DNA from: an uncultured Bacteroidota bacterium
Lineage (GTDB): Bacteria; Bacteroidota; Bacteroidia; Flavobacteriales; Flavobacteriaceae
Assembly: GCA_902526075.1 (NCBI GenBank)
Contig: CABZJM010000002.1
Coordinates: 1 to 64,000 of the forward strand
Reading direction: 5' to 3'
DNA length: 64,000 bases
The notes beneath the pieces were generated by a model, which saw nothing but the letters and a program-made list of their open reading frames with translations, was not told the DNA's origin and searched no databases. Numbering within the stretch: the first letter of the stretch is position 1; every line of letters starts with the position of its first letter. Below are positions 7,961 through 35,086 of this stretch, in pieces. Both the position numbers and the translations under genes were made by a program.

Positions 7961-9622
7961 CTACTTAACTATTAGTTTGGATTTATGTAGTTGGCCATTA
8001 ACATTAATTTCAACAATATAGGTGCCTTGATTCAAAGATGAAATGTCTATTCTACTGTCATCAGTAATTAAATCATATACTTTTCTTCCCATAATATCAA
8101 AAATCTTTATGGCTTTTAAATAATTATAATCCATTTTAATATTTAAATAGTGTTCCGTTCTATCCACAGGATTCGGGAATAAGCTAATCTCATTAATATT
8201 AAATTCATCTGTTGACAACTCATTATTTGAACCAATAACTAAATTCATCAGAGATGTATTATTACCAACATAATTATAATAATCACACGTTGAATCTATC
8301 CAGGGACCAGTCTGAACAGCAGGATAAGGATAATTAGTAGCATCTTGAGGCAGAACGGTAAAATCAGATAAATTACCAGCAATGAACTTTCTTACACCAC
8401 CTTCAAAACCGGTTGAGGCCTCATCACCAGGACCCATCCAAACCTGAACAATTATATCATCGTTGGCAGAAACTTCGACACCATTTCCATTTAAGTTACC
8501 AAATCCAGGTAAAAACTCTAAAGGAACAGTTATTACAGTTTGATGATCCTCAGGTGTTATCTCAAAATTTAATTTAAATGCAATCTGCTCCCAGTAAGCT
8601 TGATTTTGTCCTACATTACTTGTGCCTACTCCACCATTAGTTTGTCTATACAAGAAAATATTCTGATATGCTGTTCCTGTATAATCTGTAACTGGTAAAT
8701 CAGGATTGTAATTACCCTCAGCATCAGAATACCATATACCCAATTCAACAGCTCCAATAGTAACAGTTCCCTCATATCCAAAGTCTGCTGGTATATAGCT
8801 TCTTGTGTAAATTTGAGCTCCCACAGTTGTTATTGCTTCAGAATCTGCATTTTCAGAAATTATTGAATAACCTACCTCGTAGAACCATGTACCTTGATTA
8901 ACCCATTGCGTAGAAATTTCATCTCCGGACATTGCCTCAAAACTGATACTTTGTTCTGAAAGTCCATCGGCTAAGGTTATATCATCAAGCACTACTGTTC
9001 CGTTGACTAATACATCTAAAACAGTTTCATTTCCAACTCCATTACCTATCCAACCATCTCCATATGCGTCGGTTAATGTAATTATATAGGGGCCGTCTGA
9101 TGTAGCAGTAAACGAGGTTTCAGGACATGAAAAACTTGTATCGCTAGCGGAACCAGTATATATAAAGTCATAAGCTGCTTCTGTTGATTCACATATTTGT
9201 GAGGGCTCATGAGTAATTTCCTGTGAAGAATTGTGAGATAAAGTATTTTCAGCTGAAAATTCTCCAGCCTCCATATTGGTATACCAAAGGTCTGGCCCGT
9301 CATTTCCGTTGTCATTCCAGTCACTTACAGAACCATCAGTACATACAGCTCTATTTGTAAAATAATATGGTGTCCCAGGCATCAAACCTGTAATGGTATG
9401 CGGAAATGCATTAAATGTATAAATTTCTGCTGTTCCGTCCCCAGGTGTAAAGGTTTCATATGCCTTGTATTCAATTTCAAAATAGTCAATTTGAGTATTA
9501 TTGTTACCGTTAATAAATACAAAATCCTCACCTGTTTCAAACCAAAAAATATCAGGATTTGGACATTGTGAATAAATATTTGTAGATAAAAAAATAAGTG
9601 CTAAAAAGTATAATTGTTTCAT
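7961..9622 (-). CDS. Secreted protein with T9SS type A C-terminal sorting domain
   Basis: Signal peptide; C-terminus ISLFPNPVDRTEHYLNI...IKIFDIMGRKVYDL...LNQGTYIVEINVNGQLHKSKLIVK. Confidence 0.85.
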   Translation of the reverse strand: MKQLYFLALIFLSTNIYSQCPNPDIFWFETGEDFVFINGNNNTQIDYFEIEYKAYETFTPGDGTAEIYTFNAFPHTITGLMPGTPYYFTNRAVCTDGSVSDWNDNGNDGPDLWYTNMEAGEFSAENTLSHNSSQEITHEPSQICESTEAAYDFIYTGSASDTSFSCPETSFTATSDGPYIITLTDAYGDGWIGNGVGNETVLDVLVNGTVVLDDITLADGLSEQSISFEAMSGDEISTQWVNQGTWFYEVGYSIISENADSEAITTVGAQIYTRSYIPADFGYEGTVTIGAVELGIWYSDAEGNYNPDLPVTDYTGTAYQNIFLYRQTNGGVGTSNVGQNQAYWEQIAFKLNFEITPEDHQTVITVPLEFLPGFGNLNGNGVEVSANDDIIVQVWMGPGDEASTGFEGGVRKFIAGNLSDFTVLPQDATNYPYPAVQTGPWIDSTCDYYNYVGNNTSLMNLVIGSNNELSTDEFNINEISLFPNPVDRTEHYLNIKMDYNYLKAIKIFDIMGRKVYDLITDDSRIDISSLNQGTYIVEINVNGQLHKSKLIVK

Positions 9623-9846: not shown

Positions 9847-9904
9847 ATAATAAGGAGTGCAAATGTAATTTTTTTGTATTTCTCTGCAAAACAAGAAATA
9901 AAAA

Positions 9905-10621
9905 TTATTTCAAGTCGCTAATATTTTCAATTAAAGGTAAACGAGCAGCAATAAAACCTTCACCATAATCAACATTAGTTAATCGTCCTAGATCTCTAGC
10001 CCTGTATTCGATACTATCAATAAAGTTTTTAGTGGAAATAGGTGTGCTATGCACAGTTTCATTTCCATCATAAAATTGAGACTTAAATGCCTTGACGGCT
10101 TTAATCTTTGTTTGAAAGTGATTACTAATATCAACAACAAAATCAGGTTTCAAACTTTTCCATTGTATATAATGATAAATATTATTGGGCCTCCAAGGCT
10201 CCTGATCAATACCATCTTCAATAGTCTCAACCTTTTTGAGCCCACTTAAAAAACATGAATCGACAACCAATTTAGCACCTCTTGGGTGGTCAATGTGTCT
10301 GTCATCAGGTGCATTACACAAAATTAAATCTGGCCTGTATTTTCTGATCTTTTTGATTAGTTTTAACTGATGAGCGTCATCATTTTTAAAAAAACCATCT
10401 TTAAATTCTAAATTATCACGAAAAGCAACATTCAAGATTTTAGCCGCATCATTTGCTTCTTTTTCTCTAATTTCAGCGCTACCCCGAGTACCCAGCTCGC
10501 CCCTGGTCAAATCCAATATACCTACCTTTTTACCTTTTGAGATTTCTTTTGCAATTGTTCCTGAACAACCCAATTCAACATCATCTGGATGTGAACCAAT
10601 AGCTAAAATATCAACTTTCAT
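9905..10621 (-). CDS. bshB1: Bacillithiol biosynthesis deacetylase BshB1 (ORF extends to 10693; ATG at 10621 preferred)
   Basis: MKVDILAIGSHPDDVELGCSGTIAKEISKGKKVGILDLTRGELGTRGSAEIREKEA. Confidence 0.92.
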   Translation of the reverse strand: MKVDILAIGSHPDDVELGCSGTIAKEISKGKKVGILDLTRGELGTRGSAEIREKEANDAAKILNVAFRDNLEFKDGFFKNDDAHQLKLIKKIRKYRPDLILCNAPDDRHIDHPRGAKLVVDSCFLSGLKKVETIEDGIDQEPWRPNNIYHYIQWKSLKPDFVVDISNHFQTKIKAVKAFKSQFYDGNETVHSTPISTKNFIDSIEYRARDLGRLTNVDYGEGFIAARLPLIENISDLK

Positions 10622-31035: not shown

Positions 31036-31580
31036 TTAATAAGGGGGATTTACTTATTTCAACTCCTGAAAGTTTGGGTGATTACTATTTTAATAGATCT
31101 ATAATTATACTAACGGAAGTGAGTGAAGAGGAAGTAATTGGCTTTATCATTAACAAGGAACTCAATTATACTCTAAGCGATTTATATAATGAAGTTCTAG
31201 AAAAAAATATAAAAATTTTTAGTGGTGGTCCTGTAAATCAAGATAATCTTTATTTTATTCATAAGCACCCACATTTAATTGATAATAGTATAAATTTTTT
31301 TAATGATCTACACCGGGGAGGTGATTTCAAAAAAATTACAGAAATGATAAATAAAATGAAAATTGACAATTCATCGATAAAATTCTTTTCTGGTTATTCT
31401 GGTTGGACATATAATCAGTTAATAGGTGAAATAAATAATGGTTCATGGGTGGTGGTAAAAAATAAAGCCAATTATTTGTTTAAAAAAGATATTAAAAAAA
31501 TGTGGGGGGAAAAAATGAAAAAGATGGATGAAAAATTTAAAATCTGGTCAAATGCTCCTGAAAATCCACAAGATAATTAG
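31032..31580 (+). CDS. YqgE/AlgH family protein
   Basis: GDLLISTPESLGDYYFNRSIIILTE...VIGFIINKEL; FSGYSGWTYNQLIGEI. Confidence 0.92.
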   Translation: MINKGDLLISTPESLGDYYFNRSIIILTEVSEEEVIGFIINKELNYTLSDLYNEVLEKNIKIFSGGPVNQDNLYFIHKHPHLIDNSINFFNDLHRGGDFKKITEMINKMKIDNSSIKFFSGYSGWTYNQLIGEINNGSWVVVKNKANYLFKKDIKKMWGEKMKKMDEKFKIWSNAPENPQDN

Positions 31581-31966
31581 GTAGATCCCAAAACTTTCTT
31601 TAAATCGGAGATTTGATTAGTCCACAATAATTTTGACTCTTCAACTTCTTCTTCATCTTCACCATAATCAGTAACGATTAAAGAGACATCTTTAGTTATT
31701 TCATCAAACTGTATTCTTAACTCAAAATAGTAATCTGTTTGCTCATCATCAAGCCATTGAAATTGAATCTTTTCATTATTTATTTTTCTGATTAATTTCG
31801 CACTTTCTTCAGAATCATCCCAAATAAAAATAAAAATTTCCCCTCTTGAATTTACATTATCAGCAAACCACTCAGACAATCCTGAGGGTGTGGAAATATA
31901 TTGAAAAAGAAGTTTTTGAGAGACCTTTATTGGAAACTCCATTTCGAATTTAATTCTGTCACTCAT
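31577..31966 (-). CDS. START-like / AHSA1-type domain protein
   Basis: FEMEFPIKVSQKLLFQYISTPSGLSEWFADNVNSRG. Confidence 0.85.
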   Translation of the reverse strand: MSDRIKFEMEFPIKVSQKLLFQYISTPSGLSEWFADNVNSRGEIFIFIWDDSEESAKLIRKINNEKIQFQWLDDEQTDYYFELRIQFDEITKDVSLIVTDYGEDEEEVEESKLLWTNQISDLKKVLGST

Positions 31967-32049
31967 ATTGAATAATTAGGGATGTAATATATACATTTAT
32001 TCTTTTTTAAAGCAAGATTTATATAAATAATTTCTTGGTCATATATTGA

Positions 32050-32165
32050 ATCTAAAAAATTTAAATTTTATATTTGCTGCCTTTATAAATGGCGAGATAG
32101 CTCAGTTGGTCAGAGCGTCGGATTCATAACCCGGAGGTCCCGAGTTCAAATCTCGGTCTCGCTAC
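32050..32165 (+). repeat. 116-bp direct repeat copy 1 (41-bp upstream flank + tRNA-Met)
   Basis: Ungapped alignment to 33607..33722 with 6 mismatches counted by eye. Confidence 0.93.
32091..32164 (+). tRNA. tRNA-Met (anticodon CAT), copy 1
   Basis: GGCGAGATAGCTCAGTTGGTCAGAGCGTCGGATTCATAACCCGGAGGTCCCGAGTTCAAATCTCGGTCTCGCTA; cloverleaf, T-arm CCGAG/CTCGG. Confidence 0.95.
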
Positions 32166-32170
32166 AAAGT

Positions 32171-32199
32171 AAAAAAGACCTCTCATAGAGGTCTTTTTT
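32171..32199. terminator. Bidirectional terminator between tRNA-Met (+) and desaturase (-)
   Basis: Perfect 13-bp stem AAAAAAGACCTCT/AGAGGTCTTTTTT, CAT loop. Confidence 0.9.
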
Positions 32200-32230
32200 A
32201 TATTTGATTATAGTAGAGAAATTTTTTATG

Positions 32231-33424
32231 TTATTTATATGAACCCTCGACAATAAGATTCGGATCTAAATAATTCTTATTTATATTAAATTTAATAGAG
32301 TTTAAAACACTTTTGATTTCTTTAAGTTCTTGCATATATTTTTTTCTGTTAGTTTTTAATTTCTTTATGATGTTCTTAAAATTAACCGGATCAGTATTTT
32401 TTAGGTTATTATATTTTTTTTCCATTTCATCCCAAGAACTAAATATATTGTCTATATTTTTTTGCAATAAATCAATTTTATTTTGATAGAACTGCTTACA
32501 ATTTTGAGTAGATTTATTGTGGATCTCATTAAGTTGGTCTTTGATAGAATTAATATGATTTTTCCAAATAAGATATTCTTTTGTTTCTCTCAAATCATAA
32601 GTTATACCAACAAATGAAAGTAATTTGATAATCCACTTGCTTGGATCAAAAGAAAACCATTTAACTCCATTTCTATAATCCCATTGGAATGTATGATGAT
32701 AATTATGATAACCTTCCCCAAAAGTAAATAAAGACACAAACCAAGAATCGCGTGCCGATGATTTGTAATCATATGGTCTTTTACCAACGTAGTGGCAAAG
32801 GGAATTGATAAAAAAAGTTGCATGGTGAACTAAAGTTACTCTTAAAAAACCAGCCCATAAAACTGCTCCAAATGGTCTGTTGTATATCAATCCCACAATT
32901 AACGGTAAGATAAAACCAATAATTATTCCTATATGAAAATAATACTTGTTTTGAAATTTTATTGCAGATTTTGATTCTAAATCTTTAACAGCTTTAATCT
33001 TAGATTGCTCTTCTGATGTATTTTTTAAAATCCAACCAATGTGTGCATGCCAAAAACCTTCCATAATTGAATATGGATCATCTTTCGTATCTGATAAATT
33101 ATGATGTTTCCTGTGATCTGAAACCCATTTCAAAATTGTATTTTCAAAAGCAAGTGAGCCTGATATCATTAAAATCCATTCAACAAATGAATTTGTTTTG
33201 AAAGACTTGTGTGCAAATAGCCTATGATAACCCATAGTAATTCCCATTCCAGAAACAAACCAAAAAATTAGTAATAAAATAGGTTCTTGCCACACAATTC
33301 CATTATGATAAACATAAATAGAGGTGCCAAAAATTCCAATTAAAGGAATTACAGTTAAGAAGAAAACCATATTCCAATTGTATTTATTATTATTTTTCTT
33401 TTGATTCATTTTATTTGAAAACAA
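32231..33424 (-). CDS. Acyl-CoA/fatty acid desaturase with charged helical C-terminal extension
   Basis: GYHRLFAHKSF, SDHRKHHNLSD, FGEGYHNYHHTFQWDYRNG histidine boxes. Confidence 0.92.
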   Translation of the reverse strand: MFSNKMNQKKNNNKYNWNMVFFLTVIPLIGIFGTSIYVYHNGIVWQEPILLLIFWFVSGMGITMGYHRLFAHKSFKTNSFVEWILMISGSLAFENTILKWVSDHRKHHNLSDTKDDPYSIMEGFWHAHIGWILKNTSEEQSKIKAVKDLESKSAIKFQNKYYFHIGIIIGFILPLIVGLIYNRPFGAVLWAGFLRVTLVHHATFFINSLCHYVGKRPYDYKSSARDSWFVSLFTFGEGYHNYHHTFQWDYRNGVKWFSFDPSKWIIKLLSFVGITYDLRETKEYLIWKNHINSIKDQLNEIHNKSTQNCKQFYQNKIDLLQKNIDNIFSSWDEMEKKYNNLKNTDPVNFKNIIKKLKTNRKKYMQELKEIKSVLNSIKFNINKNYLDPNLIVEGSYK

Positions 33425-33606
33425 TTACATTAATACTTTCCATTTACAAAAATAAGTTATTTGTTTGATAAATAATTAATATCTATATGTACAATTTATT
33501 TATTTTTTAAGCTTGTTATTTATTTAGCAATGTTGATACCCTCCTCTTTCAAGCTATTTCTAAATCACTTAAGTAAGTTAAACTAACATCTATTTAGTAA
33601 ACACCC

Positions 33607-33722
33607 ATCTAAAAAATTTAAATTTTATAATTGCTGCCTTTGAAAATGGCGTGATAGCTCAGTTGGTCAGAGAGTCGGATTCATAGCCCGGAGGTCCCGA
33701 GTTCAAATCTCGGTCTCGCTAC
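33607..33722 (+). repeat. 116-bp direct repeat copy 2
   Basis: See 32050..32165. Confidence 0.93.
33647..33720 (+). tRNA. Diverged tRNA-Met-like gene copy 2 (CAT); possible pseudo-tRNA
   Basis: GGCGTGATAGCTCAGTTGGTCAGAGAGTCGGATTCATAGCCCGG...; three substitutions vs copy 1, two disrupting acceptor and D stems. Confidence 0.75.
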
Positions 33723-35086
33723 TAATTTCCTCTAAGAGTTTTTACTAGTTTTTCCCTGCTAAGTGTTTCTTGATTACCGGTTTTCATATCTTTTAATTGA
33801 TAACAGTTCTTTTCTTTTTCTTCATCACCGTAAAATAAGACATATGGAATACCATTTTTATTAGCATAATTTAACTGTTTTTTCAAAGAAATAGAATCAG
33901 GGTAAAATTCTGCATTAATATCATTTAATCTTAAAAAATTTGCTATCTCAATCAAATCATAAGAAAATTTTGCGCCAAAGTTTAATATCAAAACATTTAC
34001 TGAATTACAGGAAATTACCGGAAAAAGATTTAGTTCATCGATCAATAAAAATAATCTATCTAATCCAAAGCTAATTCCAATACCACTCATATTTTTTAGA
34101 CCAAAAATTTCAGTCAAATTATCATAACGCCCTCCACCTGCAATTGACCCAAGATTTATTTTCTTTGGAGGAATAACTTCAAAAATTACTCCGGTATAAT
34201 AATCAATACCCCTTGCAAGGCTAATATCGAAAACCAGATTGGATTTTATTAATTTATTTTTAGAGAAATAATTGAAAATATACTCAATATCAGAAATTGC
34301 TTCTAATCCACTATTTGAAGATTTAAAATATAATTTGATTTCTTTTAAGTTATCATAGAAGTTTTTTGATAGGTCAATAGCTTCAAACAAAGAATCTATT
34401 ATTTTTTTGTCACATCCATTTTCTGTTAAGTTATTCTTTACAACATTTACATCTGTTTTATCTAATTTGTCTAACTGATTAGTTATTATGCCAAATTTAT
34501 CGACACAATCATTTATTTCACAAATTGCATACAATAACTTCCTGCTATTAATTTTAATGAGACATCCTTCTAAATTTAAATCATTAAAAACCGAATCAAA
34601 TAAAGAAATAAAGTCTATTTCTTGCATCATTGATTTAGAGCCTATCACATCAGCATCACATTGAAGAAATTCTCTGTACCTACCCTTTTGAGGTCGATCT
34701 GCTCTCCACACATTTTGAATTTGATATCTTTTAAACGGAATGTTAATATTATTTTGATTCTGAACTACATATCGTGCGAATGGTACAGTTAAATCGTATC
34801 GAAGCGCTTTATCAACAATTTTTGGAGCTAGATTTGAAAACTCGAAATCTTTACCATCAATATTCTTGAGAAAGTTACCTGATTTAAGGATTTTGAAAAT
34901 AAGTCTCTCTCCCTCTTGCCCATATTTACCCAATAGAGTCTCTGATCTTTCAAAACTTGGAGTCTCAATTGGATTAAATCCAAATTTTGAAAAATTATCT
35001 CTAATTATGTTAATTATATAATTCCTTTTATATAAATCTTCAGAATTAAAATCTCTTGTACCTTTAGGTAAAATTGGCTTTTGCAT
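33722..35086 (-). CDS. hisS: Histidyl-tRNA synthetase
   Basis: PILPKGTRDFNSED; RYDLTVPFARYV; ARGIDYYTGVIFEVI; AGGGRYDNL. Confidence 0.95.
   Translation of the reverse strand: MQKPILPKGTRDFNSEDLYKRNYIINIIRDNFSKFGFNPIETPSFERSETLLGKYGQEGERLIFKILKSGNFLKNIDGKDFEFSNLAPKIVDKALRYDLTVPFARYVVQNQNNINIPFKRYQIQNVWRADRPQKGRYREFLQCDADVIGSKSMMQEIDFISLFDSVFNDLNLEGCLIKINSRKLLYAICEINDCVDKFGIITNQLDKLDKTDVNVVKNNLTENGCDKKIIDSLFEAIDLSKNFYDNLKEIKLYFKSSNSGLEAISDIEYIFNYFSKNKLIKSNLVFDISLARGIDYYTGVIFEVIPPKKINLGSIAGGGRYDNLTEIFGLKNMSGIGISFGLDRLFLLIDELNLFPVISCNSVNVLILNFGAKFSYDLIEIANFLRLNDINAEFYPDSISLKKQLNYANKNGIPYVLFYGDEEKEKNCYQLKDMKTGNQETLSREKLVKTLRGN

Follow-up and report, generated by a model that had tools for sequence, protein, structure and literature searches.

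A desaturase cassette between two tRNA-Met copies and a related group of integrase-free cassettes at tRNA-Met genes of Flavobacteriaceae

We analyzed a 64,000-nt stretch of DNA, hereafter the window (positions 1 to 64,000 of contig CABZJM010000002.1, assembly GCA_902526075.1), from an uncultured member of the Flavobacteriaceae whose genome (G000) is a 1.24-Mb draft, 62% complete. Between a START_2-domain gene and hisS, this DNA carries two copies of an elongator tRNA-Met gene that bracket a fatty-acid desaturase gene, the cargo of a cassette of about 1.4 kb. The locus comprises the following features.

31577 to 31966, minus strand: START_2-domain gene, left flank (PF19569, 1e-39), the same neighbor in congeners and in G312, a genome of another genus (L261)
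32046 to 32076, plus strand: putative promoter of copy 1, with TTGA (32046-32049) and TATATTTG (32069-32076), both conserved in all relatives printed
32050 to 32165, plus strand: repeat copy 1, 41-bp flank and tRNA, from the alignment
32091 to 32165, plus strand: intact elongator tRNA-Met(CAT), the same as the single copy of most congeners (Rfam, 68.3 bits)
32162 to 32165, plus strand: CTAC, left insertion point of the cassette; divergence from empty sites begins right after it, and other cassettes use the same point
32166 to 32199, plus strand: left end of the cassette, terminator hairpin AAAAAAGACCTCTCATAGAGGTCTTTTTT, with a homologous left end in G009, G012 and MED-G123
32231 to 33424, minus strand: fatty-acid desaturase, cassette cargo (PF00487, 2.4e-19; relatives)
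33607 to 33611, plus strand: ATCTA microhomology at the right junction (CATCTAG in cassette homologues, GAATCTAA in the tRNA flank)
33607 to 33722, plus strand: repeat copy 2, where the usual 27-nt cassette right end would be, from the alignment and the comparison of homologues
33648 to 33722, plus strand: apparently decaying tRNA-Met copy without the -33 element (Rfam, 52.4 bits; upstream sequence)
33722 to 35086, minus strand: hisS, right flank (TIGR00442, 6.1e-111)

Pairwise alignment of the two repeat copies confirmed the originally predicted 116-bp direct repeat, which is gap-free and holds six mismatches (copy 1 to copy 2: 32073 T>A, 32085 A>G, 32086 T>A, 32095 A>T, 32116 C>A and 32129 A>G). 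ARAGORN called a tRNA-Met(CAT) at 32091-32165 and again at 33648-33722. As predicted too, the repeat consists of 41 bp of non-coding upstream DNA plus the tRNA, and it ends on the outermost base of the stop codon of hisS (33722-33724, minus strand). The desaturase had been named as the only gene between the copies, and it is indeed the sole gene-sized ORF there, a 73-aa ORF being nested inside it. Its ORF as called begins with TTG; the true start is likely the ATG near 33409. The length and identity of the repeat exclude a chance origin. An assembly or amplification artefact is unlikely, because copy 2 has accumulated six substitutions, of which a fresh artefact would have none, and because the cassette is ~10% diverged from every other copy found.

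The two tRNA copies are not equivalent. Copy 2 scores lower with the Rfam tRNA model and has two more non-standard pairs, and at the three mismatches within the tRNA (acceptor position 5, D-stem position 25 and position 38) the odd base with respect to the congeners is always that of copy 2. One of the flank mismatches falls inside the box TATATTTG, which copy 1 and every relative printed retain and which reads TATAATTG in copy 2, while the remaining two lie immediately 5' of the tRNA. The TTGA that precedes the repeat at copy 1 and in the relatives is absent at copy 2. We take TTGA and TATATTTG to be the -33 and -7 elements of a Bacteroidota promoter and, on that reading, copy 2 would be a promoterless, decaying tRNA. 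Just before this copy, GAAAAT (33642-33647) agrees with the G015 and G006 loci (L043, L045) and not with copy 1, an agreement that may mean that copy 2 came with donor DNA.

We compared this locus with those of the genus, for which the genomes are drafts, one per species. In the congeners, the single tRNA-Met lies directly beside hisS or within about 120 bp of it. Comparison of synteny in close relatives had been proposed as a check on insertion, and it revealed empty sites, that is, one tRNA-Met by hisS and no desaturase, at 16 congeneric loci. In the nearest relative, G016, the left 669 bp up to the tRNA match the window at 95.5%, and on the right side 394 bp running from the flank through the tRNA into hisS are 92.1% identical, with nothing intervening. 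The extra DNA of the window starts exactly after the tRNA CTAC and ends where copy 2 begins. The desaturase occurs in 3 of the 21 genomes of the genus, and it is missing at this locus in every congener whose locus was recovered; G009, for instance, has an ordinary single tRNA-Met next to hisS. Insertion at a tRNA with empty sites in relatives, which is one mark of tRNA-targeted additive islands in the broad sense, was found here.

The closest desaturases are those of G009 (AG-313-A15), G012 (AG-313-I08), MED-G123 and RS341, with 92-93% protein identity to that of the window. The next homologues were found in four other Flavobacteriales (64-67%) and then mostly in marine Gammaproteobacteria (about 30-41%). 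At the DNA level, the window cassette is 89.6-90.8% identical to those of G009, G012 and MED-G123, which are about 97% identical among themselves. MED-G123 and RS341 were taken as other lineages from the identity of their hisS to that of the window (46% and 50%, respectively) and not from a stated classification. In the desaturase tree, MED-G123 groups with G009 and G012 and leaves G000 outside (99/94), which indicates that the gene moved between lineages. The tree is at odds with the rest of the genome, the discordance that the original prediction had named as a sign of insertion. Both identities and tree thus evidence the horizontal transfer expected of tRNA-island cassettes of the broad kind. 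Together with the empty sites of the congeners and the patchy distribution of the gene, this discordance supports the original reading of a tRNA-associated insertion with a membrane-lipid gene as cargo. From the lack of an integrase, the same prediction had judged an ancient or recombination-driven event more likely than an active element. Indeed, 0 of the 3 Phage_integrase matches of the genome are on the contig of the window, but great age is doubtful: lineages with only 46-50% identity in hisS have cassettes that are 90-97% identical.

In G009, G012, MED-G123 and RS341, the desaturase is found downstream of the initiator tRNA-fMet and not of the elongator tRNA-Met. The G009 cassette sits directly 3' of tRNA-fMet, with CGCTAC on one side and, on the other, the terminator found after this tRNA in relatives, whereas in G012 and MED-G123 it is stacked with other cassettes. 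In the Flavobacteriales RS341 (L130) and SP71 (L134), the desaturase comes after a DnaJ-like gene upstream of tRNA-fMet, which is possibly the older chromosomal setting of the desaturase. We discarded RS341 as the direct donor of the left terminator, as the similarity takes in the tRNA and is unconvincing. A search of IMG/VR for viral carriage of the cassette returned no desaturase, TE or RE match, and the RE-TE boundary described below was not found in phage or plasmid records.

The tRNA-fMet arrays uncovered a usual unit that starts after CTAC with a 50-nt element, TE (TAAAACAATAAAACGGTTATAC...GTAGCCGTTTTTTT), which forms a strong hairpin when folded, and ends with a 27-nt element, RE (GTTCGATATTTCnnnnGAGTTATCTAC). 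TE was present in 31 of 301 family genomes, spanning 26 genera, and is often above 90% identical, with conservation of both TE and RE judged from alignments. The survey scored three candidates per genome, which makes its copy numbers lower bounds. Among the 42 TE copies inspected, 20 abut the CTAC of a tRNA-Met and 17 abut an RE (16 ending in CTAC and one in CTGC); of the five left over, two lie behind partial tRNA ends. RE was 27 nt long in 19 of 20 listed cases and 26 nt in the remaining one. The RE-TE boundary, 50-90 bp in length, is highly conserved between genera, and the certain overlap of the tRNA 3' end with RE is CTAC only. Within the genus of the window, the gene next to tRNA-fMet varies (by reading or Pfam: desaturase, DUF998, YHYH, lipoprotein-like and others), and MED-G123 carries four units in succession at this tRNA. 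A different terminator follows the last RE in G170 and G197, as expected if cassettes enter between the tRNA and its native terminator. Furthermore, the elongator tRNA-Met of G312, next to the same START_2-type gene, recognized by reading, carries TE, a small lipoprotein-like gene, RE and TE in this order, which makes the window site a recurrent one.

Further observations concern the arrays of other genera. Stacked integrase-free RE-CTAC-TE cassettes occur at their tRNA-Met loci (L127, L286-L305, L312), with cargo that includes HTH_3 and small membrane proteins, DUF998, YHYH and a bacterial PH-domain protein; array ORFs were mostly named by reading. A second type of boundary before TE, GTTGCAACTTTnnATAATAGGGGGAGCTACT, was seen in L304 (G342; 8150-8232 and 9900-9989), with a resolvase-like gene a few kb off, and similar sequences occur in L127 and L283. 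The RE of L286, L287 and L127 resembles an imperfect inverted repeat (GTTCGATATTTC / GAGTTATCTAC) with a variable 4-nt center, a layout that looks like a recombinase site. Folded as a DNA hairpin, RE was no better than shuffles, while its boundary with TE folds well. A search for an RNA family at the boundary in three arrays returned tRNAs alone.

How the window cassette relates to these units differs at its two ends. On the left, it begins after the tRNA-Met CTAC with a terminator hairpin (32162-32199), whose sequence is not that of the usual TE; indeed, desaturase cassettes have a different left hairpin and, in the homologues, the RE variant GTTAGATATTTGAATGCTTCTCGCTAC. On the right, the similarity of the window cassette to its homologues extends through CATCTA, where the sequence turns into the upstream flank of tRNA-Met, and the 27-nt RE present in the cassettes of G009, G012 and MED-G123 is gone. 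The homology at this junction is exactly ATCTA (5 bp), inside a similar AT-rich stretch of about 20 bp, and the switch there to a position 41 bp upstream of the tRNA accounts for a 116-bp duplication of flank plus tRNA. The repeated part is thus the whole tRNA and 41 bp in the window, and only CTAC to CGCTAC in other cassettes. Judged by its homologues, the window cassette would be classed as a truncated member of the RE-TE group, and the 41-bp flank is an aberrant right junction and not an ordinary attachment site. We also considered that the right end in G009, G012 and MED-G123 might be a decayed tRNA-Met. However, the two have in common just the first 17 bp or so and the last 9 bp, and the interior alignment was no better than shuffles.

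On this evidence, we consider it probable that a horizontally acquired desaturase cassette inserted right after the CTAC of the elongator tRNA-Met by hisS, and that an aberrant right junction made the duplication. The mobile unit would have comprised the terminator hairpin, the desaturase on the opposite strand and a right end, and would have entered directly after the 3'-terminal CTAC of the tRNA. We infer that insertion is normally site-specific at CTAC and catalyzed by a recombinase acting in trans, perhaps from a phage or element that targets the same tRNA. A crossover or template switch at ATCTA would then have linked the cassette to an empty copy of the locus, at a point 41 bp ahead of its tRNA, with loss of the normal right end and creation of the 116-bp duplication; this step could have occurred at insertion or later, by recombination with an empty locus copy. 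Copy 1 would have kept its promoter and its function, with the cassette supplying its own terminator for the tRNA, while copy 2, having lost the promoter, would be decaying. Against this reading stand the absent RE and the non-TE hairpin of the window cassette, the failure to find a recombinase, the limitation of the certain tRNA-RE overlap to CTAC, the GAAAAT before copy 2 and the incomplete state of the drafts.

Somewhat doubtful is a single microhomology-driven event, in which a replication fork or incoming DNA switched at the tRNA-Met 3' end into a desaturase cassette linked to tRNA-fMet, entering it at CTAC, copied it as far as ATCTAnAAAAT, and then returned to the tRNA-Met locus at a point 41 bp ahead of the tRNA, so that the G000 copy would need no site-specific recombinase. 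It accounts for the exact extent of the duplication and fits the CTAC/CGCTAC at one junction, the ATCTA at the other, where about 20 bp of AT-rich sequence are similar, and the lack of a recombinase near the locus, but many independent cassettes have this left junction as their standard site and G312 uses the same locus for a cassette with a normal right end. Exchange of taken-up DNA purely by RecA-dependent homologous recombination over the tRNA and the repeated RE-TE boundary, with no special enzyme, is unlikely: although the conservation of that boundary between genera favors it, as do the many array genomes that hold two XerC/XerD-sized recombinases only, it leaves unexplained why unrelated cassettes have the same RE and TE and how a first insertion took place between a tRNA and its native terminator with CTAC alone in common. 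Finally, an origin by tandem duplication from a locus with tRNA and resident desaturase, the duplication being one of the options originally offered, or by an assembly artefact is highly improbable: direct repeats around one gene are a classical duplication product and the genome is an incomplete draft, yet the congeners have empty sites without the desaturase, the gene is foreign by tree and identity, and copy 2 bears its six substitutions.

The reading that we favor, site-specific insertion at CTAC, calls for an enzyme, and none was identified in the DNA separating the tRNA copies or in any array read. Phage_integrase proteins in the genus are mostly one or two per genome and of XerC/XerD size, with one more each in G000 and G020 and two weak additional matches in G011. 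The third proteins of G000 (C6:28353-28820) and G020 (C8:40374-40826) are strong matches and the only ones of their kind within the genus. Exactly two XerC/XerD-sized recombinases were found in 8 of 20 further TE-bearing genomes, and the idea that every array genome has a dedicated tyrosine recombinase is unsupported, many having these two only. A Y1 transposase acting in trans was likewise set aside, as PF01797 was detected in 2 of 28 genomes, with the drafts being incomplete, and was not detected in G000. The single-contig genome G170 carries a prophage-like island of ~48 kb between tRNA-fMet and a TE array (C1, about 1,767,900-1,815,900; L310, L286), which encodes a 435-aa tyrosine-recombinase-like protein next to tRNA-fMet and whose far end is GAGTCCAGTTCCCGCTAC, an 18-nt piece of the tRNA 3' end. 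We suggest that tRNA-fMet islands of this sort could supply the cassette recombinase.

Insertion of cassettes at tRNAs with a partial tRNA repeat is documented in Ca. Actinomarinales (PMC7771536) and in fGI-2 of Methylophilaceae (PMC10872708). Like these additive flexible genomic islands of streamlined bacteria, the present cassettes are small, pile up at a tRNA, are transferred between genera and have no reported integrase; a partial tRNA repeat can also mark their end. Their boundary, however, is a conserved RE-CTAC-TE across genera instead of a tRNA fragment, has only CTAC in common with the tRNA, and delimits mostly single small genes. Tycheposons (of Prochlorococcus, and the tRNA-Met tycheposon of Methylophilaceae) are also tRNA-bordered cargo elements of marine bacteria with tRNA-Met among their sites, but as described in PMC10872708 they span 4-200 kbp and carry a tyrosine recombinase, whereas the units reported here are about 0.5-1.6 kb and show no such enzyme in the arrays read or, in the window, between the two copies of tRNA-Met. 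The arrays recall integrons in their small, mobile single-gene cassettes with a repeated boundary, although their anchor is a tRNA gene and attC boxes at a fixed position are lacking: the plus-strand motif RYYYAAC was found at 0 of 21 boundaries (140 bp checked), and GTTRRRY at only 7, in differing positions. In the arrays read, with ORFs named by reading, no integron integrase lies beside an array, the neighbors being era, gldN or other genes. IS200/IS605-RAYT elements insert by a fixed tetranucleotide and have hairpins near their ends, as the cassettes do, but the Y1 transposase was missing from 26 of the 28 genomes tested and from all cassettes. Prophages and ICEs that integrate at tRNAs share the target, as the G170 island does at tRNA-fMet, but in their case the shared tRNA 3' core is longer, 18 nt in G170, and they bring a recombinase of their own. 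For flavobacterial equivalents, nothing on point was found in the open-access literature searched, and the shared end sequences of the cassettes are without description in the literature found. What appears to be new here is the integrase-free cassette group at flavobacterial tRNA-Met genes, cassettes at tRNAs being already known from streamlined bacteria.

Tentatively, these cassettes may represent an exchange system of Flavobacteriaceae, neither integron nor transposon, in which an enzyme encoded elsewhere captures units, marked by a hairpin on the left and the conserved 27-nt RE on the right, at the CTAC of tRNA-Met genes, moving adaptive genes such as a lipid desaturase between genera. Streamlined bacteria have few mobile-element genes, yet gene exchange occurs in them, and the literature found does not explain clearly how, in the absence of an integrase, single genes come to lie at tRNA genes. 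RE-CTAC-TE offers a concrete signature across 26 genera, accompanied by empty sites, by cassettes in stacks and by a clear case of transfer involving a membrane-lipid gene. It makes this question searchable and testable, and the window locus shows how insertion of a cassette can duplicate a tRNA and silence one of the copies.
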